In this document: positions 9,800 through 28,379 of the stretch, piece by piece
Layout of the letters: every line of letters begins with the position of its first letter
How positions within the stretch are numbered: position 1 is the first letter of the stretch
Origin: Pseudomonadota bacterium
GTDB taxonomy: Bacteria > Pseudomonadota > Alphaproteobacteria > Rhizobiales > Aestuariivirgaceae
NCBI GenBank assembly: GCA_963205315.1
Contig: CAUJIO010000078.1
Location: 1-64,000, forward strand
Direction of reading: 5' to 3'
DNA length: 64,000 nucleotides
Notes under the pieces: generated by a model
Told to the model about the DNA's origin: nothing
What the model saw: only the letters and a program-made list of their open reading frames with translations
The model's database searches: none
Position numbers and translations under genes: made by a program

Positions 9800-9905
9800 G
9801 ATGCAATGTCCCTTGAGTTTGCAATGTGTGCACGCTCAATAGGCCAGCTGGTGGAAGTGGACTTGAATGAAAGGGCTAAGCTGTCATCTGAAGTGATGCA
9901 GCAGG
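9765..9905 (-). repeat. Duplicated araC-ytkA junction, intact copy
   Basis: This segment holds the first codons of the YtkA-like gene, the 76-base gap and the last codons of the AraC gene. It matches 16541-16683 at roughly four positions in five by eye, including the shared GTGGACTTGAA block and GGGCTAAGCTGTCAT. The gap presumably carries the promoter for the peroxidase operon. Confidence 0.7.
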
Positions 9906-10661: not shown

Positions 10662-10871
10662 TTTTTCAGTATACCACAGCCCGGCCTGCAAGGGGAATGA
10701 ACCGGCCTCGCCATTCTACCGCAGATGTCCTTTCTTCTGAAAATGACCCTCACGGCCGTCGACGGCCTGCGACCGCATGCTGGTAGCCCCTTCGTTCAAT
10801 CGCGCGTCCTCAGTTGGCTCTAGGCACCGGCCACGCAACCAGCAATCAGACACGTATCCTAGAACAGAAGG

Positions 10872-11324: not shown

Positions 11325-11352
11325 GTGGCTTGTCTTGCGGAAGGAGAAAAGA

Positions 11353-12333: not shown

Positions 12334-12479
12334 CTCGGGATCATGACTGCGCGAGACAAGACAAGTATGTCTCTATTGGAAGCTTGCCTCGGCCGTATAG
12401 ACGGGGTGTCGAGCAAGGCAGGACCTTGCAACGCAGTATACGCTGCACAGCCGAATTTTATTGTTCCCAGGAGTTTAAA

Positions 12480-13115: not shown

Positions 13116-13125
13116 GGCATCTTTC

Positions 13126-13599
13126 TCAAAGTCCGTGGGCCGACAGACCGGGGTGATCATCTGGGCGACGGCCCTGCGGCCAGCGGAACTTGCGGTCCTC
13201 CTCGCGGATCGGCAGGTCGTTGATGCTGGCGAAGCGCGCCTGCATCAGGCCGTGGGCATCGAATTCCCAGTTCTCGTTACCGTAGCTTCTGAACCATTGG
13301 CCGCTGTCGTCGTGCCATTCATATGCAAAGCGCACAGCGATGCGGTTACCGTCGAAGGCCCACACTTCCTTAATCAGTCGGTAGTCGAGTTCGCGCGTCC
13401 ATTTGCGCGTGAGGAACTGCTGGATCGCGTCCCGGCCTTCGATGAATTCCGAGCGGTTGCGCCAGCGCGAGCCTGGCGTATAGGCCAGAGCCACGCGAGC
13501 CGGGTCGCGGCTGTTCCAGGCATCCTCGGCCATGCGCGCCTTCTGGGCTGCGGTCTCGACATTGAAAGGCGGCAATGGCGGGCGGTCTGTGGAGGTCAT
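13126..13599 (-). CDS. DUF1348 / SnoaL-like NTF2-fold protein
   Basis: The 157-residue protein starts [20 protein letters not shown]. Its family-typical motifs are [56 protein letters not shown] and [15 protein letters not shown], which match the DUF1348 family of small NTF2-like proteins. Function is not established. The start at 13599 is taken because AAGG lies upstream and the family begins here; the frame stays open to 13650. Confidence 0.85.
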
Positions 13600-13683
13600 A
13601 ATCCGAAACCTTGTTGAATAGGGGGAGAATTGTACGACACGGCTCCGCATCCGGGAACGCGGAGCCGTTTTGAGGTTGCGTGT

Positions 13684-14238
13684 TCAGGCGGCGTTGGCCG
13701 TTGCCTCCACCACCGGGAAGTCGATCGCGGTCTTGCCCACTTCGTTGATGTAGTTCGTCCAGGTGTTGAGGGCCACGTGCTGCATGATCTCGATCACCTG
13801 GGCATCGTCATAGCCGGCCATCTTGACGGCGCGGACATCCTCGTCGCCGACGTGGCCACGGGCCGTCGCGACCTTGGCTGCGAAGCGCACGGCGGCGGCG
13901 GCCTTCGGATCATTCGAAGTTCCGGCGCGGTTGGCCGCAATCTCGGCATCGTCGAGCTTGGCGGCGTTCTTGCCGAGATAAGTATGGGCCGAGAGGCAAT
14001 AGCTGCAGCCGTTGATCTGGGCCACCGCAAGCGCAATCCGCTCGCGGGTCGCCGGTGGCAGCTTGCCCTTGGCGAGCGCGCCGGACATTCCAAGGTAACC
14101 TTCGAGTGCAGCGGGGCTGTTCGAGACCAGACGAAACAAATTCGGCACGACGCCCAACTGCTTCTTGACGGCGGTGAGCAGGGACCGGGAGGCCTCGGGA
14201 GCGTCTTCGATGGTGGCGGGGGTCGGGAGGCGTGACAT
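13684..14238 (-). CDS. AhpD/carboxymuconolactone decarboxylase-family peroxidase-like protein
   Basis: The 184-residue protein carries the CxxC redox pair in GCSYCLSAH near the middle, with the histidine a few residues later, as in alkylhydroperoxidase AhpD. LGVVPNLFRLVSNSPAALEGY and NEVGKTAIDFPVVE are typical of the uncharacterised peroxidase-related branch. It should be cytoplasmic and act against organic peroxides. It is the first gene of the three-gene minus operon and diverges from a LysR regulator across 107 bases. Confidence 0.85.
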   Translation of the reverse strand: MSRLPTPATIEDAPEASRSLLTAVKKQLGVVPNLFRLVSNSPAALEGYLGMSGALAKGKLPPATRERIALAVAQINGCSYCLSAHTYLGKNAAKLDDAEIAANRAGTSNDPKAAAAVRFAAKVATARGHVGDEDVRAVKMAGYDDAQVIEIMQHVALNTWTNYINEVGKTAIDFPVVEATANAA

Positions 14239-14345
14239 AGTTGGATCCTTTCGGTGATCGGGTTGACGACGCCTAGATATTTCTTTCTGCGCTTGAGAGG
14301 GAGACGCTATGATATGAAGTATTCCTTCCATTTTTCGGGAGCCAT
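14239..14345. promoter_or_regulatory. Divergent promoter region between ahpD-like gene and lysR
   Basis: A 107-base gap separates divergent starts, the usual layout for a LysR regulator and its target. It contains the partly symmetric element GAAGTATTCCTTC near 14315-14327, which fits a LysR T-N11-A type site only loosely. No exact promoter boxes are called. Confidence 0.4.
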
Positions 14346-15248
14346 ATGAACCGCCTCGAAGCCATGTCGACCTTTCTGGCCGCGATTGATGCCGGAAGCC
14401 TGTCTGCTGCATCGCGCAAGCTTGACCTGCCGCTGGCCACCGTCAGCCGCAGGGTGTCGGACCTTGAAGCCCACCTACGGACGAAGCTTCTGGTTCGCAC
14501 CAGCCGCCGCCTTGAGCTTACTGATGCCGGCAGATCCTATGCCGCGGCCTGCCGTGATATCCTGGGCTCGATTGAAGAGGCCGAGCGCGCCGCATCGGGC
14601 GAGTACATCGCGCCAGTGGGGCATATTCTCATTACCGCGCCCATCGTCTTCGGCCGCCTGCATGTGCTTCCCGTGGTCGCGGATTTTCTGAAAACCTATC
14701 CCGAGATCAGCGCCCGGCTGATCCTTACCGACCGGCTTGCCGACTTTGTCGAGGATCGCATCGATGTCGCGGTGCGCATCGGCGCTTTGCCGGACAGCAG
14801 CCTGATCGCCAAGCGGATCGGCAGCGTCCGGCGGGTGATCTGTGCCAGCCCCACCTATCTTGAGGCTCATGCCCCGGCACCGCAGCGGCCCCAGGACCTC
14901 GAAGGCCACGAATGCATCACGTTCGAAGGCCTCACGTCGCCTGTGGTCTGGACCTTCCTGCAGTCCAAATCAGAGATTTCAGTCGCGATCACGTCGAGGC
15001 TCGTCGTCAACACCGCAGAAGCGGCCATCGACGCCGCCGTGGCCGGTCTCGGCGTCACGCAGGTGCTGAGCTATCAGGTTGAAGCCGCCCTGCAGGCTGG
15101 CACACTGAAGCTGATCCTCAATGATCTAGAGACTGAACCGTCACCGGTTAATCTCGTCTATTCCGGCCAAGGCCTGCTTCCGCTCAAGACCCGCGCCTTC
15201 ATCGACTTTGCAAAGGAACGTCTCCGGCGCGGACTCAAGGATCTTTAG
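14346..15248 (+). CDS. LysR-family transcriptional regulator
   Basis: The 300-residue protein has the N-terminal winged helix (MNRLEAMSTFLAAIDAGSLS, then LPLATVSRRVSDLEAHLRTK) and a substrate-binding domain. VGHILITAPIVFGRLHVLPV, LADFVEDRIDVAVRIGALPD and VICASPTYLEAHAPAPQRP are typical of the LTTR subgroup that controls oxidoreductases. It diverges from the AhpD-like/DUF1348/PNPOx operon and probably regulates it. This regulatory link rests on position alone. Confidence 0.9.
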   Translation: MNRLEAMSTFLAAIDAGSLSAASRKLDLPLATVSRRVSDLEAHLRTKLLVRTSRRLELTDAGRSYAAACRDILGSIEEAERAASGEYIAPVGHILITAPIVFGRLHVLPVVADFLKTYPEISARLILTDRLADFVEDRIDVAVRIGALPDSSLIAKRIGSVRRVICASPTYLEAHAPAPQRPQDLEGHECITFEGLTSPVVWTFLQSKSEISVAITSRLVVNTAEAAIDAAVAGLGVTQVLSYQVEAALQAGTLKLILNDLETEPSPVNLVYSGQGLLPLKTRAFIDFAKERLRRGLKDL

Positions 15249-15254
15249 AGCACG

Positions 15255-15325
15255 GTCATGTCCATAGTCAGGGAATTTGAGGCTGTTGGCTGCGTGATCG
15301 AAAAAATGATCCGGTGTATCTAGTT
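15255..15325 (-). mobile_element. IS end fragment, similar to the 6185-6250 remnant
   Basis: AATTTGAGGCTGTTGGCTGC and the following TGATCGAAAAAATGATCC match the region outside the transposase stop at 6185-6250 at roughly three of four positions. No transposase codons remain here. It is probably the outer tip of a third copy of the same IS3-like element. Confidence 0.5.
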
Positions 15326-15373
15326 ATATGCTCTCCATTGGCACGCACGAGCAATTCGACTCGGCGTCGACCA

Positions 15374-15541
15374 TCACCTCGGATGATTGGCTATCCATTC
15401 TCGCGCCAGTTTCTGAGCCTCACCAAGGGCTAATTCGCTACCCTCGAAATGAGTCACGAATTCACGCTCGTCCCGTGGCGGACGGTGATCGATCGCCAGC
15501 CCGGACGTGGGATCACGGACGTAGTTCAGGGTGGATCCGTC
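15374..15541 (-). pseudogene. Gene fragment of unrecognised family
   Basis: The minus strand reads GSTLNYVRDPTSGLAIDHRP, then DEREFVTHFEGSELALGEAQ and a terminal WIANHPR before a stop at 15374-15376. It has the look of real coding sequence (helical, charged, conserved-looking), but an in-frame TGA closes the frame at 15542 and no ATG is available. I read it as the 3' end of a broken gene next to an IS scar. The family is not recognised. Confidence 0.35.
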
Positions 15542-15597
15542 TCATGGCAACTCGGACGACAAGAAGGATTGGGTCACTAAGCGCCTAGAATGCCGAT

Positions 15598-16497
15598 TCA
15601 ATCGGTCGATGCCCTTCGAGCGGTTCGGTCAATCGCCTCCCCAACCTCTCGATATAACGCAGGCGGCAAATCATGCCCCATACCGTCGATTAAAATGAGA
15701 TCCGCGTTCGGGATCGAGGCGGCGGTATCCTTACCACAGGCGGGGAGGATGAGCGGATCATCCACCCCGTGGATGACCAGCGTCGGCACGTTGATAGTTG
15801 CCAGACGTGCGCGTCGGTCGCCAGTCACGGCCATTGCGGCGATCTGCCGCCCGGAGCCGCCCGGATCGTAGGCACGACCGACCTCTTCCAAAACGATAAG
15901 GCGATGAGCCTCATCGTCAAATGCATGGCCTGTGCCAGCGATACGGCGCGCGAATGCAAGGCTATGTGTAAGGAATCCGGCCTCGTCCGTGAAGGGATTG
16001 GGCGTGGGGCGCATCATCATCGCCATGATCTCAGGCGCAGCTTGGGGAAGTGTCGGATTGCCGGTGCTCGACATGATCGACGTCAGGGACAGCACCCGCC
16101 GCGGATGCTCGCTCGCCATGATTTGTGCGATCATCCCACCCATTGACCGTCCGACGACATGTGCCCGGGTAATGGCGAGAGCATCGAGCAAGCCAATGGC
16201 ATCCGAGGCCATGTCATGGAGCGTATAGGGAACGTCCGGTCTCTGCCCTGCCATTAGCGCAGAGACCAGTGCACGAAAATCTGGGGGTGTGCATTCGTGG
16301 AAATGGGTTGAGCATCCTGTATCGCGGTTGTCGAAACGGATCACTCGATAGCCCCGCGCTGCCAACGCCTCGCAGAATGGCACTGTCCATCTGATCATCT
16401 GCGTACCCAATCCGGCAATTAGCAGGATCGTCACGTCTTCGTCGTTGCCGAAACTGTCAAAGGCCAGGTCAATTCTATCGGTTTTCAGGATATTCAT
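15598..16497 (-). CDS. Alpha/beta hydrolase
   Basis: The 299-residue protein has a complete catalytic triad: nucleophile elbow GRSMGG near residue 116, acid in VIHGVDDPL and histidine in DGMGHDLP. The oxyanion region ILLIAGLGTQMIRW and FDNRDTGCSTHF are typical of the esterase/haloperoxidase-like branch. It is likely cytoplasmic because no signal is seen. The substrate is unknown. It lies between an IS scar and the duplicated araC-ytkA junction scar, suggesting it was brought in by rearrangement. Confidence 0.85.
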   Translation of the reverse strand: MNILKTDRIDLAFDSFGNDEDVTILLIAGLGTQMIRWTVPFCEALAARGYRVIRFDNRDTGCSTHFHECTPPDFRALVSALMAGQRPDVPYTLHDMASDAIGLLDALAITRAHVVGRSMGGMIAQIMASEHPRRVLSLTSIMSSTGNPTLPQAAPEIMAMMMRPTPNPFTDEAGFLTHSLAFARRIAGTGHAFDDEAHRLIVLEEVGRAYDPGGSGRQIAAMAVTGDRRARLATINVPTLVIHGVDDPLILPACGKDTAASIPNADLILIDGMGHDLPPALYREVGEAIDRTARRASTD

Positions 16498-16540
16498 GGT
16501 CGCACTCCATCCGGCTCATGCCGGGATTTTTGTTGGCTGA

Positions 16541-16683
16541 GCCATAGAATATCGCGGCGAGAGAACCTGGCAGGCATGATGTATGTCCCTTGACTGTGCA
16601 ATGTGTGCGTATTCAATACGCTGGCAGGTCGGAGTGGACTTGAACGAAAGGGCTAAGCTGTCATTTGACATGTATCAGCAGTC
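16541..16683 (-). repeat. Diverged copy of the araC-ytkA junction; neither gene survives
   Basis: On the minus strand the scar ends in ATG-started codons MPARFSRRDILWLS, matching the first codons of the YtkA-like gene (MPTRFSRRHILWLA). Its other end holds QMTA-stop, the last codons of the AraC gene. The region between matches 9800-9875. It appears to be what is left of a second araC-ytkA locus, with both gene bodies lost. Confidence 0.65.
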
Positions 16684-16757
16684 GGCGTCAGGCGGAACTG
16701 GACTGCGAAGTGAAGCTGCAGTAGCCTTCAACGCGACTTCACTACGCGAGACCGGTG

Positions 16758-17915
16758 ATGACAATCAACAGTGTGCAGGCCGCCGTCATGACGGGACCGG
16801 GACGAATGGAGACGCGCTCCTATCCCTATCCCGACGCTGGTGCCGACGGCATGGTCATAAAGCTCGAAATGTGCGGCATCTGTGGCACCGACAAGCACAC
16901 ATGGCGAGGCGAGACGACACAGTACGGCGGCACCCCCGCCGAAACGAGTACGCCATTTCCGATCATTCCGGGCCACGAGATCGTCGGCACGGTTGCCGAG
17001 GTCGGGCGCAACGCCAAGGACAATCTCGAATATACAGGCAAGGTCCTGAAGGTGGGCGACCGCGTCGTGATGTGTCCCGACATTCTCTGCGGGCGTTGCT
17101 GGTATTGCCGCAACAGCTTCGGCTTTCCGCTATGCGAGAACATTCGCGGCTATGGCAATCACTTTACTGCAGATGAAACGCCGCATCTCATGGGCGGATG
17201 GGCCGAATACCTCTATGTGCGGCCCGATGCCTTCGTTTACAAAGTGCCGGATAGCCTAGACGCAGAGCTGGCGGTTATGACCGAGCTGATGGCGGTGACC
17301 TTCAATCTCGACAAGGCCAAGGAATTCTCGGCCATGGACGGCGAGGGTTTCGGCGCCGGATCTTCTATCGCCGTGCAAGGCGTGGGGCCCATGGGTCTGC
17401 TGCATGTGTTCAAGGCGCGGGTCATGGGGGCAGGCGACATCATTGCGCTGGACCGGTCGGACTTCCGGCTGGCGATGGCGCGCAAGTTTGGAGCCGACTT
17501 CACCATCAATGTCACCGGGCTCAATGGAGACGAAATCATCGCCCGGGTGCGCGACTTGACCGAAGGCCGCGGCGCCGACGTGGTTCTCGAATGTACCGGC
17601 TATCCGGAGGCAGTTGAGCAAGGCGTGCAAATGGCGCGCCGCGGCGGCATGTATGTCGTGGCGGGCGTCTTTGCCGATGTCGGTCCCATCACCCTCAATC
17701 CGCACCATATTGCGGCGCGGCAGCTGCGCTTGGTCGGAATGTGCAATCATCCCCCGCGCGGCTATCCCGCCAGCATGAAGTTGCTTGAGAAATTCAAGGA
17801 CACTTTCCCTTTGCGCGACTTCGTCACGCATCGCTTCAAGGTGGATGAAGCCGCCAGCGCAATGGCCAAGGTGCAGGATCTCGATAGCTGCATGAAGATT
17901 GTGATCACGCCCTAA
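16758..17915 (+). CDS. Zinc-dependent alcohol dehydrogenase (MDR family)
   Basis: The 385-residue protein has the catalytic zinc site (MCGICGTDKHTW, then PGHEIVGTVAEVG) and a structural-zinc-like cysteine lobe (CPDILCGRCWYCRNSFGFPLC begins at about residue 102). The NAD-binding fold is SIAVQGVGPMGLLHVFKARV, followed by IALDRSDFRLAMARKFGADF. It should oxidise an alcohol or polyol; sorbitol/threonine-dehydrogenase-like enzymes are the nearest group I recognise. The ATG at 16758 is preferred over the GTG at 16755. No strong ribosome site is seen. The duplicated junction scar ends 74 bases upstream. Confidence 0.85.
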   Translation: MTINSVQAAVMTGPGRMETRSYPYPDAGADGMVIKLEMCGICGTDKHTWRGETTQYGGTPAETSTPFPIIPGHEIVGTVAEVGRNAKDNLEYTGKVLKVGDRVVMCPDILCGRCWYCRNSFGFPLCENIRGYGNHFTADETPHLMGGWAEYLYVRPDAFVYKVPDSLDAELAVMTELMAVTFNLDKAKEFSAMDGEGFGAGSSIAVQGVGPMGLLHVFKARVMGAGDIIALDRSDFRLAMARKFGADFTINVTGLNGDEIIARVRDLTEGRGADVVLECTGYPEAVEQGVQMARRGGMYVVAGVFADVGPITLNPHHIAARQLRLVGMCNHPPRGYPASMKLLEKFKDTFPLRDFVTHRFKVDEAASAMAKVQDLDSCMKIVITP

Positions 17916-18023
17916 CTCCACTCGGGGGAAGCCGAAAGCTTGGGTACTCCAATGACTCCTTATGGCGAGGATGTTCGCATTCCAGCGCCAGTTGCGAGCC
18001 TGTGGAGTAGGTAGCGTTGGACG

Positions 18024-18186
18024 TCATATGTAGACGAAGCACCAAATCAGAAGACGATTTCTGGCGCCGGTGTTCCTCACTGCGGCACAGATGCCGCGTA
18101 CGCAGCCGCGCAGCCAGCTGTGGGCCTGATCGCCGTCCATGCGGGGATGCCAGAGCATCGAGACCGTAAACGGCCCCGCTGGCGCC
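18024..18186 (-). pseudogene. LysR-family regulator C-terminal remnant
   Basis: The minus strand reads AGPFTVSMLWHPRMDGDQAH and then SWLRGCVRGICAAVRN before a stop at 18024-18026. This is the characteristic end of a LysR substrate-binding domain. The frame is closed by a TAA at about 18187, so only some 53 codons remain. Confidence 0.6.
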
Positions 18187-18205
18187 CTACTTTACGGGGA
18201 CCAAT

Positions 18206-18448
18206 TCACCTGATCACATAGATGTATGCGGTGGGAACCACATACTTCTCGGCAAGCTTGGTGGCAGGTACGCCCTTGGCGCGGGCGGCCCAAATTTGGT
18301 CCTTCATTTTCGCGGCATCTGCCGAGGATCGGCAAAGCCTCTCTGATCCCTTGGTAGCGGGCTCTTTCCCTGCAAGGGTGATCATTTTCTTTGTCGTCAC
18401 GATGATGCTGTTCAGTCGAGCAATCTGCTGCTTGCTTATTTCCATCAT
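18206..18448 (-). CDS. Small conserved hypothetical protein
   Basis: The protein is 79-80 residues and basic, with AADAAKMKDQIWAARAKGVP- and ATKLAEKYVVPTAYIYVI-like segments. The last part resembles a short helix-turn-helix found in many small rhizobial hypothetical proteins. Start is at 18448 or 18445. DNA binding is possible but not shown. Confidence 0.5.
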   Translation of the reverse strand: MMEISKQQIARLNSIIVTTKKMITLAGKEPATKGSERLCRSSADAAKMKDQIWAARAKGVPATKLAEKYVVPTAYIYVIR

Positions 18449-18645
18449 GTATCCATTTCTGGATTCAGGCTCTTTTCTGCAGTCTAGGTTTTCGGCACTC
18501 TCAGGGCAATAGTCTCGAATCGCTTGCGGCGAGCTGACAAGCCCTTGTTGTGTGGCCTACATTCTCGAGAAAGACGAGATCGACCGGCAGCATTGTTCTA
18601 TGCTGGCGATCCGACCTGGTGGTCTGCAACAACAAGGTGCGTTGT
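18449..18645. other. Intergenic, no gene seen
   Basis: A 197-base stretch before the amidohydrolase with no coding signal. AAGG at 18634-18637 is the only ribosome-site candidate for the next gene. Confidence 0.4.
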
Positions 18646-20037
18646 ATGAATGATGCCGTTGACCATGATCCAGAAGAGATTGCCTGGAACGCCATCAAGC
18701 CGGAGATTGAGCGGCTCTTCTCTCAGCAATGGGCGGACCCTGAATTGCCATGCATGGAGTATCGCTCGTCCGCGCGCCTTGCAGAATGGCTGGAGACACA
18801 TGGCTTTGCGGTCGAACGCCAAGCAGGTGGAGTTCCGACGGCCTTCGTCGCGCGGCGTGCCGTCGGCACAGGTCCCGTCATTGGGTTCCTCTGCGAATAT
18901 GATGCTCTGCCTGGCCTCGGCAACGCGGCATCAGCGAAGCGTGAGGGAACAGGACAGATCGCCGGACATGCCTGCGGGCACAATCACATCGGTCCTGCCA
19001 ATGCCGGCGCTGCGATCGCAGCCGCTGCTCTCTGCGAGAAACTCGGCGTCGCAGGAGAGATCCGCGTCATCGGCTGCCCCGCGGAAGAAATCCTCTGGGG
19101 CAAGATCGCTCTACTGAAGGCGGGCGTGTTCGATGGGATTGATGTGATCCTCACTTCGCATGGCGACTATCAGACAGGAGCCCTGTCCCGGCCGTGCCAG
19201 TCGGTCATATCCGGGGAATTCGTCTTCAATGGAGAGGCTGGCCATGGCGGTCAGCAGGGGCACAAGAATGCACTCCTCGTCGCCGAGCACGTCGTTGCCG
19301 CTGCAGAAAGGATCTGCGCGGAGACATACCCGAGTATTCGCCTGCGGCACGTGCTTCGCCGCGCCGGTGTCATGCCATCGATCACGCCTGCCGAGACCCG
19401 GGTCTGGTTCACAACGCGCGGCTATGACTTCAAGACAACGAATGACGCCTACACGGCCATCGTGGCAGCGGCGGAGAAGATTGCCCGAGAAGGAGGCGTC
19501 GCCATCCGGGAACAGTTCATCTCGGAGACTCGCGGTTACCTACCGAATGATACGATTGGCAGAACGTTGTTCGAGGTCATGTCTTCTCTTGGGCCGCCAC
19601 AATGGACGGAGTCGGATATTGCCTTCATGCAGTCTCTGGTGGCGAACTGTTCACCCGGCGCTGTGATGACCTTGGACCGGGATGTCCGATTTTTCGACAG
19701 TGGCGAGGACTACTATGGCCAGGATGACGGCGAGGTGAGCTGGCGCATTCCGCTGGGCCGGGTGAACTGGGCATATCCTGAGGAAGTGCCGATCCACCAT
19801 TGGGCGTGGACGGCGCTGTCGGGTCACCTCGCTAGTTCCCCTGGCCCGCTCTTGGCAGCCCGGACACTCGCCCAGACAGCCGTCAGACTTCTCACGTCGC
19901 CAGCCATCATTGACACCGCGAAAGCAGAACTGAAGAAACTGGTCGATGGGATCGCACTTGGGGAGCCGCGGCTCGGGGCATTCGAAGTCCTCACGAAGGA
20001 CCCGCAGTCATTCTGGGACGCGACATGGGTGAGTTGA
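18646..20037 (+). CDS. M20-family amidohydrolase, AbgB-like (p-aminobenzoyl-glutamate hydrolase type)
   Basis: The 463-residue protein follows the M20 pattern: EYDALPGLGN (metal-ligand region), GHACGHNHIGPANAGAA with the catalytic cysteine-histidine of amidohydrolases, and CPAEEILWGKIALLKAG. The dimerisation domain starts SVISGEFVFNGEAGHGGQQG. WRIPLGRVNWAYPEEVPIHH and TVWFT-like strands resemble AbgB. It probably cleaves an N-acyl or aminobenzoyl-glutamate type amide in the cytoplasm. Start is taken at the ATG at 18646, where family similarity begins. AbgA/AbgT partners are not in the window. Confidence 0.8.
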   Translation: MNDAVDHDPEEIAWNAIKPEIERLFSQQWADPELPCMEYRSSARLAEWLETHGFAVERQAGGVPTAFVARRAVGTGPVIGFLCEYDALPGLGNAASAKREGTGQIAGHACGHNHIGPANAGAAIAAAALCEKLGVAGEIRVIGCPAEEILWGKIALLKAGVFDGIDVILTSHGDYQTGALSRPCQSVISGEFVFNGEAGHGGQQGHKNALLVAEHVVAAAERICAETYPSIRLRHVLRRAGVMPSITPAETRVWFTTRGYDFKTTNDAYTAIVAAAEKIAREGGVAIREQFISETRGYLPNDTIGRTLFEVMSSLGPPQWTESDIAFMQSLVANCSPGAVMTLDRDVRFFDSGEDYYGQDDGEVSWRIPLGRVNWAYPEEVPIHHWAWTALSGHLASSPGPLLAARTLAQTAVRLLTSPAIIDTAKAELKKLVDGIALGEPRLGAFEVLTKDPQSFWDATWVS

Positions 20038-20862: not shown

Positions 20863-22176
20863 TCACGCGTCTCTGAACGAACGGTCGAGATAGTCCAGAA
20901 CGGGCTTCAGCACATAGGTCAATGGCGTCCGGCTTTCGGTCGCCATAAACGCTTCGACCGGCATGCCCGGCAACAGATCGTGCTTGCCAAGCTTGGCAAG
21001 CTCTTCCGGCCGCAACGAGATCTCGACCTCGTAATATAACTTGAGAGTCATGGCATCCTTGAATGCGTCCGGGGAGATGCGGCTGACTTGCCCCAGAATG
21101 ATCGGCAGCCTTCTGCGGTTGAAGGAGAGGAACTTGACTGACGTCATCTGGCCGACGAAGACCTGATCAATATCGGTGGCGGCAACCCTCACTCCCACCA
21201 CGAAGGGCTTGTCGCGTGGAACGATGTACATGAGAGGATCGGCGGCCACCACGACAGAACGCTCGCCCTGAACCTTGAGATCATGAACCCGTCCAGCCAC
21301 GGGCGCCCGGATCTCGAGCTTGGTCAAACTGTCGAGAAGGGCACTTCGCCTTTCCATGGCGCGGGCCCTTTCCGGCCTTACCTTGTTGAGATCCTCGGCG
21401 ATCTTGTCGCGCGCGTCTGGAATGACCGCGAGCTGCGCGAGTTTCAGCTCGGCGATCTTCCCCTTCAGTTCGGCGATCCGGGCCGTGATCTGGCCGATTT
21501 CGCCCTCATTCTTGAGATCCTCTTTCTGCAGCACATAGAGCTGGCCAAGCTTCACCAGCCCCTTGTCGGCGAGCTCACGCATTTGCTCGAGTTCCAGCTG
21601 GATGGGCTTCCGCGACTCGATCTTTGCCGCGAGTTCGGCCTCGTTGCCGGAAATCTGCTCAGCAACCTGGCCCATCTGTTCGGTCAACAGGTGGGCCTTC
21701 GCATCGAGTGACTGATAGTAGGTTTCGAGCTGGCGCTCCTGCCGCCGGACGAGGGCTTCGATCTGCGGATCACGGGTGGCCGCATCCTTCAGCATCGGAT
21801 CGAAACGAAGGTCGCGGCGGCCTTCGAGAATGGCTTCGAGCCGCGCCTCGCTCGCGAGGGCCTCGAAGAGATCGGTTTCGACGAGCTTCAGGTCGGACCG
21901 GAGCATCGTGTCGTCGAGACGGATCACAATCTGCCCAAGCTCAACGCTGTCGCCGCTGCGCGCGAGGACCTCGGCAATGACGCCGCCGATCGGGTGCTGC
22001 ACTGCGGTCATGTTGGTGGAAACCTCAACCTTGCCGCTGCCCAAAACGGCGCCGGCAATCTGCACGTTGGCACCCCATATACCGACGGCGCCGAACACCG
22101 CGGCGACGGCAATGACCCCGATGGCCATCGGCCGGGCGATACTCCATGTGCGGCGCGGCTTTGTGGCAGGTTCCAT
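20863..22176 (-). CDS. Type I secretion periplasmic adaptor, HlyD/PrsE family
   Basis: The 437-residue protein has one N-terminal membrane helix (about 16-36, PMAIGVIAVAAVFGAVGIWG) and a lipoyl-like half motif (TAVQHPIGGVIAEVLARSGD). A long coiled-coil hairpin covers about 90-280 (repeated QMRELADKGLV, AELKGKIAELKLAQ). The second lipoyl half is TKLEIRAPVAGRVHDLKVQG and the beta-barrel has LLPGMPVEAFMAT. It should span the periplasm between the ABC exporter and a TolC-like channel, which is not in the window. Its start is 4 bases after the ABC gene's stop, showing one operon. Confidence 0.9.
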   Translation of the reverse strand: MEPATKPRRTWSIARPMAIGVIAVAAVFGAVGIWGANVQIAGAVLGSGKVEVSTNMTAVQHPIGGVIAEVLARSGDSVELGQIVIRLDDTMLRSDLKLVETDLFEALASEARLEAILEGRRDLRFDPMLKDAATRDPQIEALVRRQERQLETYYQSLDAKAHLLTEQMGQVAEQISGNEAELAAKIESRKPIQLELEQMRELADKGLVKLGQLYVLQKEDLKNEGEIGQITARIAELKGKIAELKLAQLAVIPDARDKIAEDLNKVRPERARAMERRSALLDSLTKLEIRAPVAGRVHDLKVQGERSVVVAADPLMYIVPRDKPFVVGVRVAATDIDQVFVGQMTSVKFLSFNRRRLPIILGQVSRISPDAFKDAMTLKLYYEVEISLRPEELAKLGKHDLLPGMPVEAFMATESRTPLTYVLKPVLDYLDRSFRDA

Positions 22177-22180
22177 AGCG

Positions 22181-23911
22181 CTATTCGGCTCCTCCGCCGG
22201 TGGCGATCTTCTTCTCTGCCTTCTTGTCGCTCAGCTGGGTGACATTCTCCGGCACCGGGAAAGGCTTCAGGCGGCCGCCATCAAGCAGCAACTGGCCCGA
22301 GGTCATGGGCAATGACAGGCGCTGACGCGAGAAGATCAGGACGATGCAACCGCGGCTCTTGAGGTCGGCAAGAACGGGCCTCAGGCTCTTGTTCAATGCC
22401 TCCCGCATGCTGGCATCGGGCTCGTCGATCACCAGGATTTGGGGATCGTTGTAGAGCGCGCGGGCAAGGCCGAGGCGATAGCGGTCGCCGCGCGAGAACC
22501 CCGTTCCCGACTGGTCGAGCCGCATCATGTAGCCCTCGGGCAGCGCCAGGATGGTGTCGTGAATGCCGGCAGCCTTGGCGGCGGCAACGACCTTGTCGCG
22601 GCTTGCGTCGATATCCAGCCGCGAGATGTTTTCCTCAATCGTGCCGGCAACAAAGGTAACTGTCTCCGGAACGTAACCATAAATCCTCGAGGTTTCAGCC
22701 TCGGACAGGCGGCTGATGTTGCTGCTGCACAAGTGGATACTGCCGGCCGACAGCTTCCAGCCGCCGAGGATCGTCTCCGCGAGCACCGTCTTGCCGGAGC
22801 CGCTTGCACCGATGATCTCGATCACCTTGCCGGGAGCGACGTTCATGTTGACGCTGCGCAGCAGCGTGCGACCGGTGACCGGCGACTTCACCGACACGTT
22901 GCCGAGAGACAGCCTCAGGCGGTTGGCTGGAATGGCTTCACCGTTGGGATCGGCGAGTTCGGCATCCTTGGCGGCCAGCACCGCCTTGAGCTCGCGCCAA
23001 CGGCTGGCCGCTCGGCAGAGTTCCGGAAAATCACCGGCGAAGGATTCGACCGTTGCGAAGACGCGCGAGGTCAGAAACATGCCCGCCACCATGGCGCCGA
23101 CGGTCAATTCGTTGTGGAGGGCGTAGTAAGCGCCAACGGCCAGGACAGTGTATTGGAGCAGGACCCGCATCTGGCGCGTTGAAACGTCGAACCAGACTGT
23201 CCAGTCCTTGAACTCGATGGCGCGGTCGCGAGACTCTTGGCGTGCCAAAAGCCAGCGCTGCTTCAGAGACGCGCCCATCTCCTGTCCGCGGATGACGTTA
23301 CGCGACGAGACCATGATATCCTTCATTTCGGCAATGCGGCGGCTGGCCTGCTTCGCCCGGTCCTCCCTGGCGCCAGACGTCAACATCTGGACCAGGACCA
23401 CACAGACGAGCAGCGCGATGGCACTGAGGCAGAGCCAGCCCAGCATCGGGTGAAGGACAAAGACCATCACCACGAACATCGGCATCCAGATCATATCGAG
23501 CATCGATATCAATGCTCCCGAATTGAAGAAGGATCTCAGTCCATCGACCTCATCAAGGCCTGACGTCGGCTTCGATTGCGCCCGCGCGAAGAACTCGTTG
23601 CGTGAGGTCGCGGTGAAGAGGCGGGTTTCGATGCGCTCCTGAAACTGCGCCCCAAACCGCGCCATGATGCGGCGGCGCGAGTAATCGATGAGCCCCATCA
23701 GCAACACGAAAACCACCACCAGGCCGAACAGCGCCACGAGTGTTTCTTCAGATCGCGCCGGCAGCACGCGGTCGTAGATGAGCAGCATGAACAGCGGCCC
23801 GGTGAATCTCAGCAAGTTGAAAACGAAGCTCAGTACGAGTGCGACGGCCACGATGAAGCTGCCGCGCCACATCGCGTCCTTCATCGTGCTTTCGATCGTT
23901 TGTCCCGTCAT
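22181..23911 (-). CDS. Type I secretion ABC exporter, PrsD/PrtD-like, with altered ATPase motifs
   Basis: The 576-residue fusion has a six-helix membrane domain (about 15-310; VALVLSFVFNLLRFTGPLFM, MLLIYDRVLPARSEETL) and an ATPase domain. Walker A is GASGSGKT near 370. The signature region reads FSRGDRYRLGLARAL instead of LSGGQ. Walker B is LVIDEPDA near 495. The H-loop position reads VLIFSRQR rather than a THR-type motif with histidine. Catalysis may be slow or unusual. Start 23911 has GAGGAG 5-6 bases before it. A longer frame to 24145 overlaps the oxygenase gene and is rejected. Confidence 0.85.
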   Translation of the reverse strand: MTGQTIESTMKDAMWRGSFIVAVALVLSFVFNLLRFTGPLFMLLIYDRVLPARSEETLVALFGLVVVFVLLMGLIDYSRRRIMARFGAQFQERIETRLFTATSRNEFFARAQSKPTSGLDEVDGLRSFFNSGALISMLDMIWMPMFVVMVFVLHPMLGWLCLSAIALLVCVVLVQMLTSGAREDRAKQASRRIAEMKDIMVSSRNVIRGQEMGASLKQRWLLARQESRDRAIEFKDWTVWFDVSTRQMRVLLQYTVLAVGAYYALHNELTVGAMVAGMFLTSRVFATVESFAGDFPELCRAASRWRELKAVLAAKDAELADPNGEAIPANRLRLSLGNVSVKSPVTGRTLLRSVNMNVAPGKVIEIIGASGSGKTVLAETILGGWKLSAGSIHLCSSNISRLSEAETSRIYGYVPETVTFVAGTIEENISRLDIDASRDKVVAAAKAAGIHDTILALPEGYMMRLDQSGTGFSRGDRYRLGLARALYNDPQILVIDEPDASMREALNKSLRPVLADLKSRGCIVLIFSRQRLSLPMTSGQLLLDGGRLKPFPVPENVTQLSDKKAEKKIATGGGAE

Positions 23912-23969
23912 TCGGCTCCTCAGCCCAATTGGTCCCAGTGGCCAGACCCAACCGCTACGCCGAAGGTCC

Positions 23970-24635
23970 TCATATCTTTTGCTGGTTGAGGTTGAAGCTG
24001 ATGATGATGCGATGACCAGCGCGGCCTGCTTCCTTCGACATGTTGGGATCGACGCCGTGATAGAGCCAGCTTGGAAACAACAGCATGCGATCCGGTTTCG
24101 GCGTGAAGCGCACCTTCGTCCAGCATTCCTTTGGGCGCTTGGCATTCGGCCGGTATTTCGGCTGGTTCATCAGGTGGGCGGTGCGCGGCTCGATGAACTC
24201 GATGTCGCCCGCCCCCTTTGGCGCCTGGATGTAGTAGACGCCGCTCCACATGCAGCCCGGATGCACGTGGGCGCGGTTGGAACTGCCGGGCGGATTGATG
24301 ATCGACCACATGGTGCCGATCTTCATTGCGTGATTGGCCGAGTAGCTGAGCTCGCTCGACATGCGTTCCGTGGCGACACGAATGTGATTGACGAGCTCGG
24401 TGTATTCCTTCTTCTTGTGCAGGTCAGGCTGGCTGTGCCAGCCGCCAAGTTCCTCGTAGTTCGACCGTGCAATGCCCTTCTGGTCGCGATCCCGCTCGGC
24501 ATAGATTGCCTCGAGAAGTTTCGTGTTCAAGGCGTCGGCATTTGCCACTTCGATCTGGAAAATAACTGTCGGAAAGTACGTTTTCATCACGAAGCTGCTC
24601 ATCAGCCCCGTATCCGTCTCATTCTTCGTCAGCAT
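23970..24635 (-). CDS. 2OG-Fe(II) oxygenase-like protein (TIGR02466 type)
   Basis: The 221-residue protein has the cupin-fold motifs of this oxygenase group. The iron-binding region is SNRAHVHPGCMWSGVYYIQA, the distal histidine is in LLFPSWLYHGVDPN, and the 2-oxoglutarate-binding arginine is in GHRIIISFNLN. GGWHSQPDLH and WSIINPPGS are also typical. Such enzymes hydroxylate side chains or small molecules; the substrate here is not known. It is the first gene of the operon with the ABC exporter and HlyD adaptor, 58 bases upstream of the ABC start, so its target could be the exported polypeptide (inference). Confidence 0.8.
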   Translation of the reverse strand: MLTKNETDTGLMSSFVMKTYFPTVIFQIEVANADALNTKLLEAIYAERDRDQKGIARSNYEELGGWHSQPDLHKKKEYTELVNHIRVATERMSSELSYSANHAMKIGTMWSIINPPGSSNRAHVHPGCMWSGVYYIQAPKGAGDIEFIEPRTAHLMNQPKYRPNAKRPKECWTKVRFTPKPDRMLLFPSWLYHGVDPNMSKEAGRAGHRIIISFNLNQQKI

Positions 24636-24814
24636 TCAGCCCTCCCAAGCCATCGGCTGGTCAACGCCCTACACAAAAACCTTAACACTTCCTTAGTTGA
24701 ACTCAAGATCCCGTAGACCACCCGTTGCATCAGGGTTAACTTGAGCAGATACTTTCCAGCCAGATATTTTGCACCTGCCAGCAGGCGGGCACGGTGAGCG
24801 AGGAGCAGGTCGCG
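24636..24814. promoter_or_regulatory. Divergent intergenic region of the exporter cluster
   Basis: A 179-base gap between divergent starts of the oxygenase/exporter operon and the metallopeptidase-like pair. It is locally AT-rich (around 24670-24745, CTTAACACTTCCTTAGTTGA) and should hold promoters for both directions. No exact boxes are called. Confidence 0.4.
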
Positions 24815-25660
24815 ATGGGCAGCCGAAACATTGCACACCGGGGCTCGCTGCACGCCTGGCTTGCCGCTGCGGCTCTGTTCGCGTTCCTGATGATCTTCAC
24901 AGAGGGTGAGGCACTCGCCGGGGCGGAAGGCGATCCGCCTTTCAGCGACACGGCCGGGACCGTATTCGACATCATCCAAAAAGGCGATCCAACGGCCTTC
25001 GTCTGCCTCGATGCATCAGGCCGTGGCGAACGCCAGATCTGGGACAAGCGGGTCGACGGCGAGCCGGTGGTCAATGCCTACCTGTTTCACGCTCGCTTCA
25101 GCGATGGCACAAATATCGAGGTCGCCGTCAATCCGGAGTTCGGTTCGCGTGAAGCCGCCGAGAAGGAGGCCAGCCGCTACACGGCGGCTCTGGGACAATT
25201 GCCCACCAGCCTCCGGAGAGGCATCAACCGCGTCAGCGTTCATGAGGGCCGCAAGAGTTTTCATGCCGGAACCGGCCAGATCGTATTCTATGCCGGGACG
25301 GCAACGGAGCGGGAAAGCTACAATCACCTCGAAGAGTCGATCTTTCATGAAGCGGTTCACGCCTCGTGGGACGCCGAGCATCGCCTTGTCCCTGCATGGG
25401 TGAAAGCGCAACGTGACGATGGCGGCTTCCTCACCAGCTACGCCAGCAGGAGTCCCGACCGCGAGGACCTGTCCGAAACCGCTCTCTTCGCTTTCGCGAT
25501 CCTCTACCACCCGGACCGCCTCCCGCCGGCAGATACCGAGGCAACTCTGAAAGCTGTGCCGAACCGCATCGCCTATATCCGCGGGCTGCTGCCTCCGGAC
25601 AAGCCGCTCTTCGTCGATGACGGACCGCCGCAGGGCTGCGCGGCAAAGTCCGTGGACTGA
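24815..25660 (+). CDS. Exported HExxH metallopeptidase-like protein, family not recognised
   Basis: The 281-residue protein has an N-terminal signal or anchor (AWLAAAALFAFLMIFTEGEA, likely cut after ALAGA). A central HEAVH zinc motif sits in LEESIFHEAVHASWD near residue 185. DREDLSETALFAFAILYHPD downstream could give the third ligand. The ATG at 24815 has AGGAG 9-10 bases upstream; a GTG at 24794 is possible. It is followed 11 bases later by a second metallopeptidase-like gene. The likely site is the periplasm, where it could process the exported acidic protein (inference). Confidence 0.65.
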   Translation: MGSRNIAHRGSLHAWLAAAALFAFLMIFTEGEALAGAEGDPPFSDTAGTVFDIIQKGDPTAFVCLDASGRGERQIWDKRVDGEPVVNAYLFHARFSDGTNIEVAVNPEFGSREAAEKEASRYTAALGQLPTSLRRGINRVSVHEGRKSFHAGTGQIVFYAGTATERESYNHLEESIFHEAVHASWDAEHRLVPAWVKAQRDDGGFLTSYASRSPDREDLSETALFAFAILYHPDRLPPADTEATLKAVPNRIAYIRGLLPPDKPLFVDDGPPQGCAAKSVD

Positions 25661-25671
25661 GCGGCCGACAC

Positions 25672-26427
25672 ATGACGGGAACTATAGAACGATCCGCAAG
25701 GCACAGGCTGGACGACTGGCTGACGCTTCACGGCATCACAGCGGATGACTGCGAGCGACTCCTGTCGAGGATACCGGGTCAGCCAACCATCAGCACTGCT
25801 GATTTCGCGGCCAGCGCTCAGGTTCCATCTGGACACTCGGCGGAAGAAGCATGGACGTTCGTCAATCACGCGATGGCGCGGCAGTGCCCGTCCCTTTCGG
25901 ACGTTATCAAGTCCGTGGTGGTGAACACGGCCGTCAACCCGGCGCCCGACCGGAAGAGATTTCCCGCCCCGTTCACGCTTCATGATGGCGGCAATGGTTA
26001 TCCTTATGTCTCTTGCCATCATGACGGAGGCATCGGCAGTCTCATCTGCCTTGCGCATGAAGCGGGTCATGCCATTCAGTCCGTCATGAGCGGCGGCGCG
26101 TTCGTTCCTCCCATCACGCGGGAGGTCGCGGCGTTCGTCTCCGAAACGGCCTGCGAAGCGCTCATCGATGCCGAATGTTCCGGCCTGAGCCCAGCGATTG
26201 GCGAACTGCGTACCGCGCTCGACGCGCGCTATCTCGGCCGTTACGCAAGGCGCCTGCGCAAGGCTCTATCCTCTGCCCAAGAGAATTACGACTATGTCTG
26301 GAACTATCCGCTGGCGCGCCTGCTGGCGCGGGGATTGACGGGCCCCCTTGCTTGTTCCGAATGCACCGCACTCTTCAGCGGCCGTTTGCCGCTCAGGGAA
26401 CTCGCCGACCGGGTGCTCCGACCCTGA
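25672..26427 (+). CDS. Zinc metallopeptidase-like protein with HEAGH motif (M3-like)
   Basis: The 251-residue protein carries ICLAHEAGHAIQSVM near residue 130. REVAAFVSETACEALIDAEC lies about 22 residues later, a helix placed like the third-ligand glutamate helix of M3 oligoendopeptidases. YPYVSCHHDGGIGSL precedes the motif, resembling the substrate-binding loop of that family. It is much shorter than a full M3 enzyme (about 600 residues) and has no signal peptide. It is likely co-transcribed with the exported HEAVH protein 11 bases upstream. Confidence 0.65.
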   Translation: MTGTIERSARHRLDDWLTLHGITADDCERLLSRIPGQPTISTADFAASAQVPSGHSAEEAWTFVNHAMARQCPSLSDVIKSVVVNTAVNPAPDRKRFPAPFTLHDGGNGYPYVSCHHDGGIGSLICLAHEAGHAIQSVMSGGAFVPPITREVAAFVSETACEALIDAECSGLSPAIGELRTALDARYLGRYARRLRKALSSAQENYDYVWNYPLARLLARGLTGPLACSECTALFSGRLPLRELADRVLRP

Positions 26428-26543
26428 AGGAAACCGGCATGGCAACCTGGCGAAAGGGTCCGGCCTCCCGGACCCTTCACGATGATCGAGGTGACACTCA
26501 GGCCGCGCGGCGAGTGGCCGGCGGATTATGCAGCGCCGGGTAA

Positions 26544-28379
26544 TCAGGCCGATTCGTCACCTTCATTACCCTCGTTGTTTTCGTCACCCTCATCCTGCTC
26601 GTCGCCTTCGTCGCCTTCATCATTCTCGTCGAGTTCATCGCCCTCGTCGGTTTCGTTACCTTCGTCGTCCTCGTTGCCTTCGTCGTCCTCATTGCCCTCA
26701 TCAGACTCGTCGTCCTCGTTCCCCTCGTCACCTTCGTCTCCGTCTGGGATGAGAGCCTCGTCTGCTTCATCGCCTTCATCGCCCTCATCATCCTCATCGG
26801 CTTCGTCGCCTTCGTCGCCTTCGTCGCCTTCGTCGTTCTCGTCGCCTTCGTCGGCCTCGTCATTCTCGTCGGCCTCGTCGTTCTCGTCGCCCTCGTCGTC
26901 TTCATTGTTTTCGTCCAGTTCGTCGCCTTCATCGTCCTCATTCGTTCGGGCATCGCCGCTCGCTACTTCGTCACCTTCGTCGCCTTCGTCGTTGTCGGCG
27001 TCTTCGTTGCCTTCGTTGGTCTCGTCAATTTCCTCGCCCTCGTCACCCTCATCACTCTCATCGGCTTCGTCGGCTTCGTCGTTCTCGTCGTCCTCGTCCG
27101 ACTCCTCACCTTCGTCGCCTTCGTCGCCCTCGTCGGATTCATTGTCCTCGTTGGCTTCGTTATCCTCGTCGTCCTCGTTGCCCTCGTCGTCGGCGTTGTC
27201 CTCGTTGGCTTCGTCGTCCTCGTCGCCCTCATCACCGTCCGAATCCGAGCCTAGGCCAGTCTCGTCGCCCTCATCGGCCTCGTCACCTTCATCAGATTCA
27301 TCTGACTCGTCGGCCTCATCGGACTCATCGCCCTCATCGTCCTCGTTGTCCTCGTCGGCATCGAAATCCTCGTTGAACTCGTTACCCTCGTCGCCTTCGT
27401 TGTTCTCGTCTGATTCGTCGCCCTCGTTGCCGAGCACCGGACTTGGCTCGTTGCCTTCGTCACCTTCATCCGCCTCGTCACCTTCGTCGTTCTCGTCGTC
27501 CTCGTTGCCCTCGTCGCCCTCGTCGTCTTCGTCGCCCTCGTCGAACTCATCGTTCTCATCGTTCTCGTCGGATTCGGTGCCCTCATCGGATTCGTTGCCT
27601 TCGTCCGCCTCGTCCCCCTCGTCGCCTTCGTCATTCTCGTCCGACTCATCGCTCTCGTTGCTCTCGTCGGACTCATTGTCCTCGTCGTCCTCGTCGGCTT
27701 CATCCCCCTCGTCGTCCTCGTTGCCTTCGTCAGCTTCGTTGTCCTCGTCGTCCTCGTCGCTCTCGTCGGCCTCGTCGTCTTCGTTGCCTTCATCGGACTC
27801 ATTGTCCTCGTCGCCCTCATCAGCTTCGTCGGCTTCGTCGCCCTCGTCGGATTCGTTGCCCTCGTCGGCTTCGTTCTTCTCGTTGCCTTCGTCGCCTTCA
27901 TTTCCCTCGTCTGACTCGTTGCCTTCATCACCTTCGTTGTTCTCGTCGCCTTCGTCTTTTTCGTCGCCCTCGTTGCGCTCGTCGCCTTCGTCGCCCTTGT
28001 CGCTTTCGTCACCCTCGTCGCCTTCGTCGTCCTCGTCGCCTTCGTCGTCCTCGTTGCCCTCGTCGTCTTCGTCGGACTCGTTGCCTTCGTCGCCCTCGTT
28101 CTTCTCGTCGCCTTCGTCGCTCTCATCGCCTTCGTCGGCTTCATTGGCTTCGTCGGACTCGTTGCCCTCGTTGCCTTCGTCGTTCTCGTCACCTTCGTCC
28201 TTCTCGTCGCCTTCGTCAGCCTCGTCGTTCTCGTCGCCTTCGTCGTTCTCGTCACTCTCATCGCCTTCGTCACCATCGACAGTGGCAAAACTGACCGGCG
28301 CGAACAGATCATACGAAGCAAGACGGATTTCTTCTTCGAGGTCATCAATTGCGGTCGTAAGAGAAGACGGATTCGACAT
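26544..28379 (-). CDS. Giant acidic tripeptide-repeat protein, (X-[D/N]-E)n
   Basis: The 611-residue protein starts with 35 ordinary residues (MSNPSSLTTAIDDLEEEIRL, then ASYDLFAPVSFATVD). From residue 36 to the end it is a near-perfect tripeptide repeat: X (mostly G, also S, A, N, D, K), then D or N, then E. There are about 190 units. Short breaks occur at PSPVL, GSDSDG, ASGDART and ALIPDG. GGAGA-type ribosome site CTGGAGA lies 6-8 bases before the ATG. There is no RTX nonapeptide and no Sec signal. The protein should be disordered, strongly anionic and metal-binding. It converges on the metallopeptidase pair and lies near the type I exporter, making it a candidate substrate. Confidence 0.75.
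   Translation of the reverse strand: MSNPSSLTTAIDDLEEEIRLASYDLFAPVSFATVDGDEGDESDENDEGDENDEADEGDEKDEGDENDEGNEGNESDEANEADEGDESDEGDEKNEGDEGNESDEDDEGNEDDEGDEDDEGDEGDESDKGDEGDERNEGDEKDEGDENNEGDEGNESDEGNEGDEGNEKNEADEGNESDEGDEADEADEGDEDNESDEGNEDDEADESDEDDEDNEADEGNEDDEGDEADEDDEDNESDESNESDESDENDEGDEGDEADEGNESDEGTESDENDENDEFDEGDEDDEGDEGNEDDENDEGDEADEGDEGNEPSPVLGNEGDESDENNEGDEGNEFNEDFDADEDNEDDEGDESDEADESDESDEGDEADEGDETGLGSDSDGDEGDEDDEANEDNADDEGNEDDEDNEANEDNESDEGDEGDEGEESDEDDENDEADEADESDEGDEGEEIDETNEGNEDADNDEGDEGDEVASGDARTNEDDEGDELDENNEDDEGDENDEADENDEADEGDENDEGDEGDEGDEADEDDEGDEGDEADEALIPDGDEGDEGNEDDESDEGNEDDEGNEDDEGNETDEGDELDENDEGDEGDEQDEGDENNEGNEGDESA
26556..28272. repeat. Nine-base tandem repeat array inside the acidic protein gene
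   Basis: The DNA repeats in 9-base units, on the plus strand CTCRTY plus a variable codon, matching the tripeptide X-[D/N]-E read on the minus strand. Third positions vary between units (CTC/TTC, GTC/ATC/GTT), so the array is kept by selection on the peptide as well as by slippage. Stop codons are absent in several frames on both strands as a consequence. Confidence 0.8.

Follow-up and report, generated by a model that had tools for sequence, protein, structure and literature searches.

A gene cassette for a candidate secreted, oxygenase-modified tripeptide-repeat polymer

An earlier note on this DNA had placed an ABC/HlyD pair, a 2OG-Fe(II) oxygenase, two HExxH genes and a 611-residue X-[D/N]-E protein at 20863–28379, and the open reading frame list and profile searches located all of them in that interval of the window (the whole 64,000-nucleotide stretch analysed here):

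20863–22176, minus strand: HlyD, adaptor protein of type I export in the periplasm (TIGR01843 above cut-off; orthologues in eight other cassettes)
22181–23911 (annotated reading frame to 24145), minus strand: ABC, PrtD-like exporter permease/ATPase (TIGR01842 E 8e-119, under cut-off)
23970–24635, minus strand: OXY, TIGR02466/PF13759 2OG-Fe(II) oxygenase with an HxHP motif
24794–25660, plus strand: MP1, HEAVH protein with a putative signal peptide
25672–26427, plus strand: MP2, HEAGH protein, reduced M3-like peptidase and candidate leader peptidase (weak TIGR02290 match, PepF-type structures by sequence)
26544–28379, minus strand: acidic protein, a leader with DLFAPVSF, after which X-[D/N]-E repeats continue up to the C-terminus (reading frame and repeat counts)
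28245–28379, minus strand: leader at the N-terminus of the acidic protein, spanning about 36–45 residues (leader comparison)

HlyD, ABC and OXY share one strand, and the acidic gene lies outside this exporter transcription unit, with MP1 and MP2 intervening on the opposite strand. Because orthologues of ABC begin to align at about residue 76–80 of the listed frame (22181–24145), its start is likely the ATG at 23911, directly after the end of OXY. HlyD scored 297 bits against TIGR01843 (cut-off 208.65) and belongs to that adaptor family. ABC contains FSRGD and exceeds the cut-offs of Pfam ABC_tran and ABC_membrane. As in type I secretion of the PrtD/PrsD kind, the two form a pair, but ABC falls outside the PrtD family as modelled by TIGR01842 (397.6 bits, cut-off 510.15), and the H-loop His is absent in the eight exporters examined. 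The substrates differ too: no common C-terminal tail was seen among nine putative substrates, which carry a conserved N-terminal leader instead.

The acidic reading frame encodes 611 residues, including 174 D, 184 E and 61 N, with a net charge of about −350 and 176 [D/N]E dipeptides; it had no Pfam match, and thus none to RTX nonapeptide repeats. Tandem Repeats Finder reported a 9-bp unit at 26598–28271 (184.7 copies, 64% match). Across 2825 units counted from the proteins, D or N occupies position 2 in 2726 and E in only 14, N being as frequent as D, while position 3 is E in 2751 and D in 13. Position 1 is Gly in 1821 units overall and in 65/159 of those in the window, being otherwise D, N, A, S, F or others. 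Glu is preserved in the acidic frame although the third codon base varies, and we therefore rejected a 673-residue S/P-rich frame on the opposite strand as an artefact of the 9-bp repetition.

OXY is assigned to TIGR02466 (228.4 bits, cut-off 62.5) and PF13759 (83.6 bits, cut-off 27; E 1.4e-23). HxHP is present in 32/32 aligned rows and a distal His..Asn..Arg pattern in 29/32; since HxH stands where HxD is usual, we regard the iron site as putative. Histidines H109, H111 and H179, in the numbering of the OXY alignment, are invariant. The predicted structure (pLDDT 77) resembles those of 3bvc and 2rg4 and of numerous 2OG oxygenases, prolyl hydroxylases among them. The proteins of 3bvc and 2rg4, TIGR02466-like and from marine alphaproteobacteria, share the predicted fold and the HxH motif but only about 25% identity with OXY; both entries are titled uncharacterized, and our literature search found no function or substrate for either. 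Among the papers covered by that search, from which most subscription papers were absent, one, on a cyanophage, names TIGR02466 and none names TIGR04463 (a maturase model considered below).

The earlier note, whose interpretation is supported in part, would have been refuted by a lack of co-occurrence of exporter and acidic gene in relatives, and such a lack was not observed: repeat, OXY, ABC and HlyD recur together in nine genomes, the window's included, with MP2 in 8/9. Sulfitobacter maritimus, Aliiroseovarius sp. KMU-50 and Mesorhizobium sp. L-8-3 are among the carriers. In the genus of the window, only G000 showed the complete set. At the thresholds used, OXY was detected in 19/394, 3/297 and 1/61 genomes, and in the family of 394 genomes true repeats occur in 11/19 OXY-positive versus 0/375 OXY-negative genomes (Fisher 1e-16, a value to be read in light of the common ancestry of these species). 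Close relatives of MP1 (E 1e-110 or better) occur in 9/340 genomes, all nine OXY-positive, and one cassette (L090 in G733) has neither MP1 nor MP2.

The repeat was not clearly seen in 7/19 OXY-positive genomes, of which one falls in the type A oxygenase clade (L037 in G448, with no cassette) and another three belong to type B; weak matches with loci in G448, G569, G665, G670, G762 and G767 lack any stretch of three consecutive [D/N]E units, and G517 gave no repeat match. Matches in seven OXY-negative genomes proved to be other sequence (EGH/GHE in L114 and L119, GNV, TEP, VGS, and collagen-type in two), as did those in the G000 relatives G011, G018, G042 and G046 and on contig 30 of G000, all collagen-type. 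Counting against the pairing, another relative of the window genome (G005) has a 12-unit X-D-E run lacking N in an unrelated protein; its oxygenase is only 32% identical and lies on a different contig. The OXY loci of G244 (42% identity), G350 (41%) and G1005 had neither cassette nor repeat within the 20 kb read, and the set was not annotated near plasmid matches from Pseudooceanicola, Limimaricola and Sulfitobacter, the first of which was also searched by sequence. The titles and abstract openings listed in the literature search, again with most subscription papers out of reach, yielded no description of this system.

The pairing of oxygenase and repeat extends beyond the cassette type of the window, an observation missed in the earlier note. 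OXY relatives are likewise found with the repeat where it is part of GG-leader proteins with a C39 peptidase and a radical SAM maturase, of RTX-like proteins and of a signal-peptide protein, and G009 has a two-gene arrangement of a repeat and a 33% identical oxygenase. Across architecture types A to E the leader, exporter and peptidases vary, and OXY plus the repeat is the element common to all. The oxygenase clades track architecture, with ten rows plus one extra in type A (support 98/95) and nine in type B (100/99). Repeat quality varies; in L092 it is loose, with 9/17 flanked units perfect.

The acidic proteins have a RiPP-like anatomy of leader plus repeat, and the systems resemble the radical SAM/C39-exported RiPP systems (TIGR04463) in having a ribosomal precursor with an N-terminal leader, a presumed dedicated modifying enzyme and ABC-type export genes. 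Type B clusters come closest, with a GG leader and a TIGR04463-like maturase that scores under the TIGR04463 cut-off, whereas radical SAM and C39 genes are absent from the type A stretches read. RiPP products are by convention peptides under about 10 kDa; in contrast, those described here are protein-sized, from 207 (the shortest complete type A protein) to over 1000 residues, and the 611-residue protein of the window lies outside that convention.

We consider it reasonably likely (probability roughly 0.6) that this gene set is a dedicated line for making a secreted, enzyme-modified tripeptide polymer. Because OXY and the repeat stay paired across otherwise different proteins, the repeat is quite probably the substrate of OXY. 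Position 2 takes D and N alike and almost never E, which favours Asp/Asn as the modified position over mere charge, and we judge that assignment rather more plausible than its opposite; the [D/N]-E constraint appears to fit Asp/Asn beta-hydroxylation better than it fits bulk charge. By analogy, ASPH and FIH both accept Asp and Asn, as exchange of D and N at position 2 would require (PMC4543633), but their substrates are EGF and ankyrin domains, unlike the tripeptide repeat of the cassette.

In the proposed mechanism, the acidic gene product would begin with a short leader and continue as X-[D/N]-E repeats, and cytosolic OXY would hydroxylate the Asp/Asn preceding each Glu along the unfolded chain, most likely at the beta-carbon. 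The leader may then direct the protein to the exporter formed by the PrtD-like ABC and HlyD, as their linkage suggests. MP2 would cut or destroy the leader at ..SF, as the counterpart of the C39 peptidase in the GG-leader form, and MP1 would work on the exported side. The product should be strongly anionic and probably disordered, and might bind metal ions; this last step is the weakest of the scheme, and we hold it doubtful.

The proposal that both metallopeptidase-like proteins trim a leader gained support for MP2 only, from its co-distribution with a leader motif; MP1 shows linkage to the cassette. The motif, ..SF, is common to 8/9 cassette leaders read, the L090 leader lacking SF, and MP2 was present in 9/20 genomes, every one with a ..SF leader. 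The exception is G450 (an incomplete 1.9-Mb assembly), which has a ..SF leader protein and in which MP2 was not found; this lowered our odds on trimming by MP2 slightly, to somewhat short of even. MP2 weakly resembles M3 peptidases (TIGR02290 E 3e-6, far below cut-off) and matches PepF-type structures by sequence in the PDB (best E 4.8e-5). Its alignment contains an invariant HExxH-type motif, an invariant Glu 29 residues past the first His, and YxYxWNYP; this distal Glu and YxYxWNYP have roles in M3 peptidases. MP1 matched no Pfam or NCBIfam profile, its signal peptide was judged by eye, and a PDB search by sequence returned one chance-level row (E 0.84); a single-sequence model was set aside (pLDDT 35).

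These same features of MP2 bear on an alternative in which the repeat is modified by MP1 and MP2, both being 2OG-dependent HExxH oxygenases rather than peptidases. Such enzymes do hydroxylate Asp, His, Asn and Gln runs in RiPP precursors (PMC12636437), yet MP2 resembles PepF-type M3 peptidases and keeps the distal Glu and YxYxWNYP. Furthermore, 2OG is cytosolic, whereas MP1 has a signal peptide, and we consider this alternative improbable. A collagen-like triple-helical stalk, stabilised by OXY as collagen is by its hydroxylases, would explain the period of three, the resemblance of the oxygenase model to prolyl hydroxylases among others, the Pfam Collagen match to G-N-E runs (E 1e-20 in L091) and the below-cut-off matches of several repeats to NCBIfam collagen-like adhesin models. 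Collagen and its prolyl hydroxylases are indeed alike in logic, in that a 2OG oxygenase modifies a repeat of three residues. However, a triple helix requires Gly at each third place, and the position-1 counts show that Gly here is optional; Pro is absent, and the conserved residues are [D/N]-E. Because Gly is not obligatory, we rank this reading low, as very improbable.

It is also possible, though unlikely, that the repeat is a plain secreted polyanion and that OXY modifies the leader, the exporter or another part of the pathway, with co-occurrence produced by a shared mobile island. The patchy distribution of the cassette would suit such an island, as would the seven OXY-positive genomes in which no repeat is known. 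Against this stand the persistence of OXY and the repeat while leader, exporter and peptidases change across types A to E, and a position 2 that behaves unlike bulk charge.

Enzymatic modification of the repeat by OXY remains our preferred reading, and its association with the repeat across architectures provides a concrete substrate prediction for TIGR02466-like oxygenases, a group for which our literature search found no function. In a bolder and tentative form, to which we give less than even odds, one clade of TIGR02466 oxygenases would be a class of bacterial Asp/Asn beta-hydroxylases for a single motif, X-[D/N]-E, grafted onto varied secreted proteins, and the window cassette would yield a poly-hydroxyaspartyl polymer, hydroxylated at far more than a hundred sites, a giant ribosomal metal ligand that follows a collagen-like logic with an acidic repeat. 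If the substrate assignment is true, it would reveal a bacterial oxygenase devoted to a tripeptide repeat of secreted proteins, for which repeat number and D/N ratio would be natural variables.

All the gene elements claimed by the earlier note are present in the window as it described them:

20863-22176 (-), HlyD-like protein (HlyD)
22181-23911 (-), PrtD-like ABC exporter
23970-24635 (-), TIGR02466 2OG-Fe(II) oxygenase (OXY)
24794-25660 (+), HEAVH protein (MP1)
25672-26427 (+), HEAGH protein with a predicted reduced M3-like domain (MP2)
26544-28379 (-), 611-residue acidic protein of X-[D/N]-E repeats

The acidic frame of the repeat gene is the coding one, because Glu is kept at unit position 3 while the third codon base varies (GAA 1636, GAG 1115), as it also does in the Asp and Asn codons (GAC 1264, GAT 186, AAC 1123, AAT 153). 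Among 2825 units from 21 repeat ORFs of 16 genomes, each with a perfect unit on either side, position 3 is Glu in 2751 (97.4%) and Asp in 13, and position 2 is Asp in 1450, Asn in 1276 and Glu in 14; this counting is biased towards intact arrays, and the repeat proteins of L104, L130, L145, L157, L164 and L165, read later or left out, fall outside it. D-to-E and D-to-N are each one-base changes, so the fact that D and N swap freely at position 2 whereas D and E hardly ever do points to selection; bulk charge alone would permit Glu and disfavour Asn. The Mesorhizobium repeat (L038, 6217-7677) includes a short other-frame stretch (GKETKADEG..QQRRATKG), as if two frameshifts had cancelled.

OXY at E 1e-60 or better is encoded by 19 of 394 genomes in the family to which the Sulfitobacter locus belongs. 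The L035 repeat protein matched 18 of the same 394 genomes (E 1e-4), and one match read from each identified true repeats in 11, all OXY-positive (G447, G455, G475, G488, G552, G556, G558, G578, G705, G733 and G776; loose in G552); the matches in seven OXY-negative genomes proved not to be the repeat, G-H-E runs accounting for two. With two candidates scored per genome, true repeats occur in 11/19 OXY-positive versus 0/375 OXY-negative genomes (Fisher 1e-16, among species that share ancestry). Scoring all candidates in the other eight OXY-positive genomes gained one, G621, with short NEG stretches, and found no repeat in seven (G448, G517, G569, G665, G670, G762, G767); G670 carries a fragmented TIGR04463-like radical SAM gene. 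Fetched stretches from the family contain the repeat in 9 of 17, and for the eight stretches that do not, two genomes (G558, G705) carry repeats elsewhere. The G-H-E runs, in OXY-negative G499 (L114) and G823 (L119), are long and amount to a histidine variant of the three-residue period.

True repeats were seen in three of 61 relatives of the window genome: G000 itself, G009 and G005. The G009 repeat sits immediately upstream of an oxygenase that shares 33% identity with OXY. G005 encodes an X-D-E run of 12 units in which X is hydrophobic and Asn does not occur, followed by an Ala/Arg-rich part, in a 326-residue frame (L157, contig 64); its oxygenase, 32% identical to OXY, is on a different contig and the genome has no close OXY, which speaks against strict exclusivity of the pairing. 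The genome of the window has, in addition, a gene for a collagen-like G-X-Y protein (L062, G000 contig 30, 66122-67039).

The co-occurrence of acidic gene and exporter expected by the earlier note was borne out in nine genomes, window included, which hold repeat, OXY, ABC and HlyD together. A contig scan with OXY returned six orthologues (56-70% identity), four of them belonging to a gene set that includes an acidic X-[D/N]-E protein, namely those of Pseudorhodobacter (L034, the second gene part with the leader being on a separate contig, L060), Aliiroseovarius (L035), Sulfitobacter (L036) and Mesorhizobium (L038). At L037 (G448) neither cassette nor repeat was found; in G450 (L039) NEG repeats lie away from the OXY locus, in a small protein that has a ..SF leader and in an RTX-like protein, on whose contig an MP1 relative also lies. 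Four further cassettes (L088, L089, L090 and L165) came from family samples. MP2 is present in eight of the nine genomes (exception, L090); MP1 lies inside the locus in seven and outside it in L035/G446, and was not found in L090/G733. In the window's own genus the cassette was seen in G000 only, and the next best OXY match, in G009, is 34% identical.

Architectures of repeat proteins associated with OXY-like oxygenases
Type A (window kind): leader and repeats, PrtD-like exporter
Type B (G455, G556, G558, G578, G705): GG-leader repeat proteins
Type C (L091, L055, L104): NEG runs in RTX-like proteins, ahead of a GGKP..DLDGDG stretch
Type D (L092): Ig-like-domain protein with acidic tail, upstream of OXY
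Type E (G009): NEG repeats and, by eye, a signal peptide

Across these types the oxygenase and [D/N]-E are constant, while leader, exporter and peptidases vary. The oxygenase tree places L037 with the nine type A rows in one clade (98/95) and collects type B in another of nine rows (100/99), three of which lack a known repeat; two type C rows join the type D row (93/92), and the positions of L104 and of the distant rows are unsure. G558 has a tandem pair of OXY copies (L098, 9174-10552). Type B open frames span 333-1692 residues; six starts read (L093, L094, L097, L106, L107, L130) show a leader with a GG end, then a short P-rich stretch, and seven of nine proteins read have Cys-rich tails (CGADACAxDAGG type in L093, L094, L097, L107 and L110). 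HlyD-like and C39-peptidase-like genes adjoin the L093, L094 and L097 repeat genes; C39 was scored with Pfam in L097 alone (E 1.8e-18), and that C39-like gene showed no ABC ATPase domain. All five type B genomes encode a TIGR04463-like radical SAM maturase (460-486 bits, below the cut-off of 525), in G705 far from both OXY and repeats, and a second modification of the Cys-tailed proteins is likely. The L091 locus (G776, 9473-19900) brings together OXY, small lipoprotein-like genes and RTX-like proteins in which the NEG runs are long. It also has an MP2 relative with additional fused sequence and two proteins whose starts carry ..SF, one being a 74-residue leader protein.

All 32 aligned oxygenase rows have HxHP, and 29 of the 32 show a distal His..Asn..Arg pattern; the usual motif of such enzymes is HxD. 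A model of OXY from seven sequences (mean pLDDT 77, pTM 0.79) best matches 3bvc and 2rg4, which have the same HxH, followed by 2OG oxygenases, among them PHD2 and prolyl hydroxylases of bacteria and viruses. We put the probability that the repeat is the OXY substrate at about three in four, and somewhat favour Asp/Asn as the modified site. A beta-carbon hydroxylase would accept both residues, fitting position 2, much as ASPH and FIH do (PMC4543633).

Nine of 20 genomes searched whole encode MP2 proper at E 1e-56 or better (G000, G445, G446, G447, G449, G475, G488, G776, G998), and each of these has a ..SF leader on a repeat protein. The other eleven have a leader lacking SF (G733), GG leaders or starts not read (five type B genomes), other starts (G009, G552, G621) or no repeat (G448), with one exception. 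The exception is G450, with a ..SF protein and no MP2 in an incomplete 1.9 Mb assembly; because of it, leader trimming by MP2, already short of even odds, is given slightly less weight. MP1 relatives at E 1e-110 or better occur in 9 of 340 genomes, all OXY-positive; weaker ones bring in a further four with OXY and eight that are OXY-negative. We retain as a rival to peptidase function that both HExxH proteins are themselves 2OG oxygenases, for which RiPP pathways supply precedent (PMC12636437).

Export of the acidic protein by ABC/HlyD is inferred because the genes are linked; no C-terminal signal common to nine repeat substrates was found. The ABC signature varies (FSRGD, LSRGQ, FSKSE, LSNFE and others) and the expected H-loop His is absent in 8/8 aligned exporters (window, L034, L035, L036, L038, L088, L090, L165); the ATPase of these exporters may therefore be slow or degenerate.

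The component parts are each of known kind, and none of the titles and abstract openings listed in literature searches describes the oxygenase-repeat pairing. Metal binding by the polymer, as the earlier note envisaged, is judged less likely than not. The whole set is best read as a system that modifies and secretes an acidic tripeptide polymer under the guidance of its leader, alike in logic to RiPP systems but differing in its protein-sized product.
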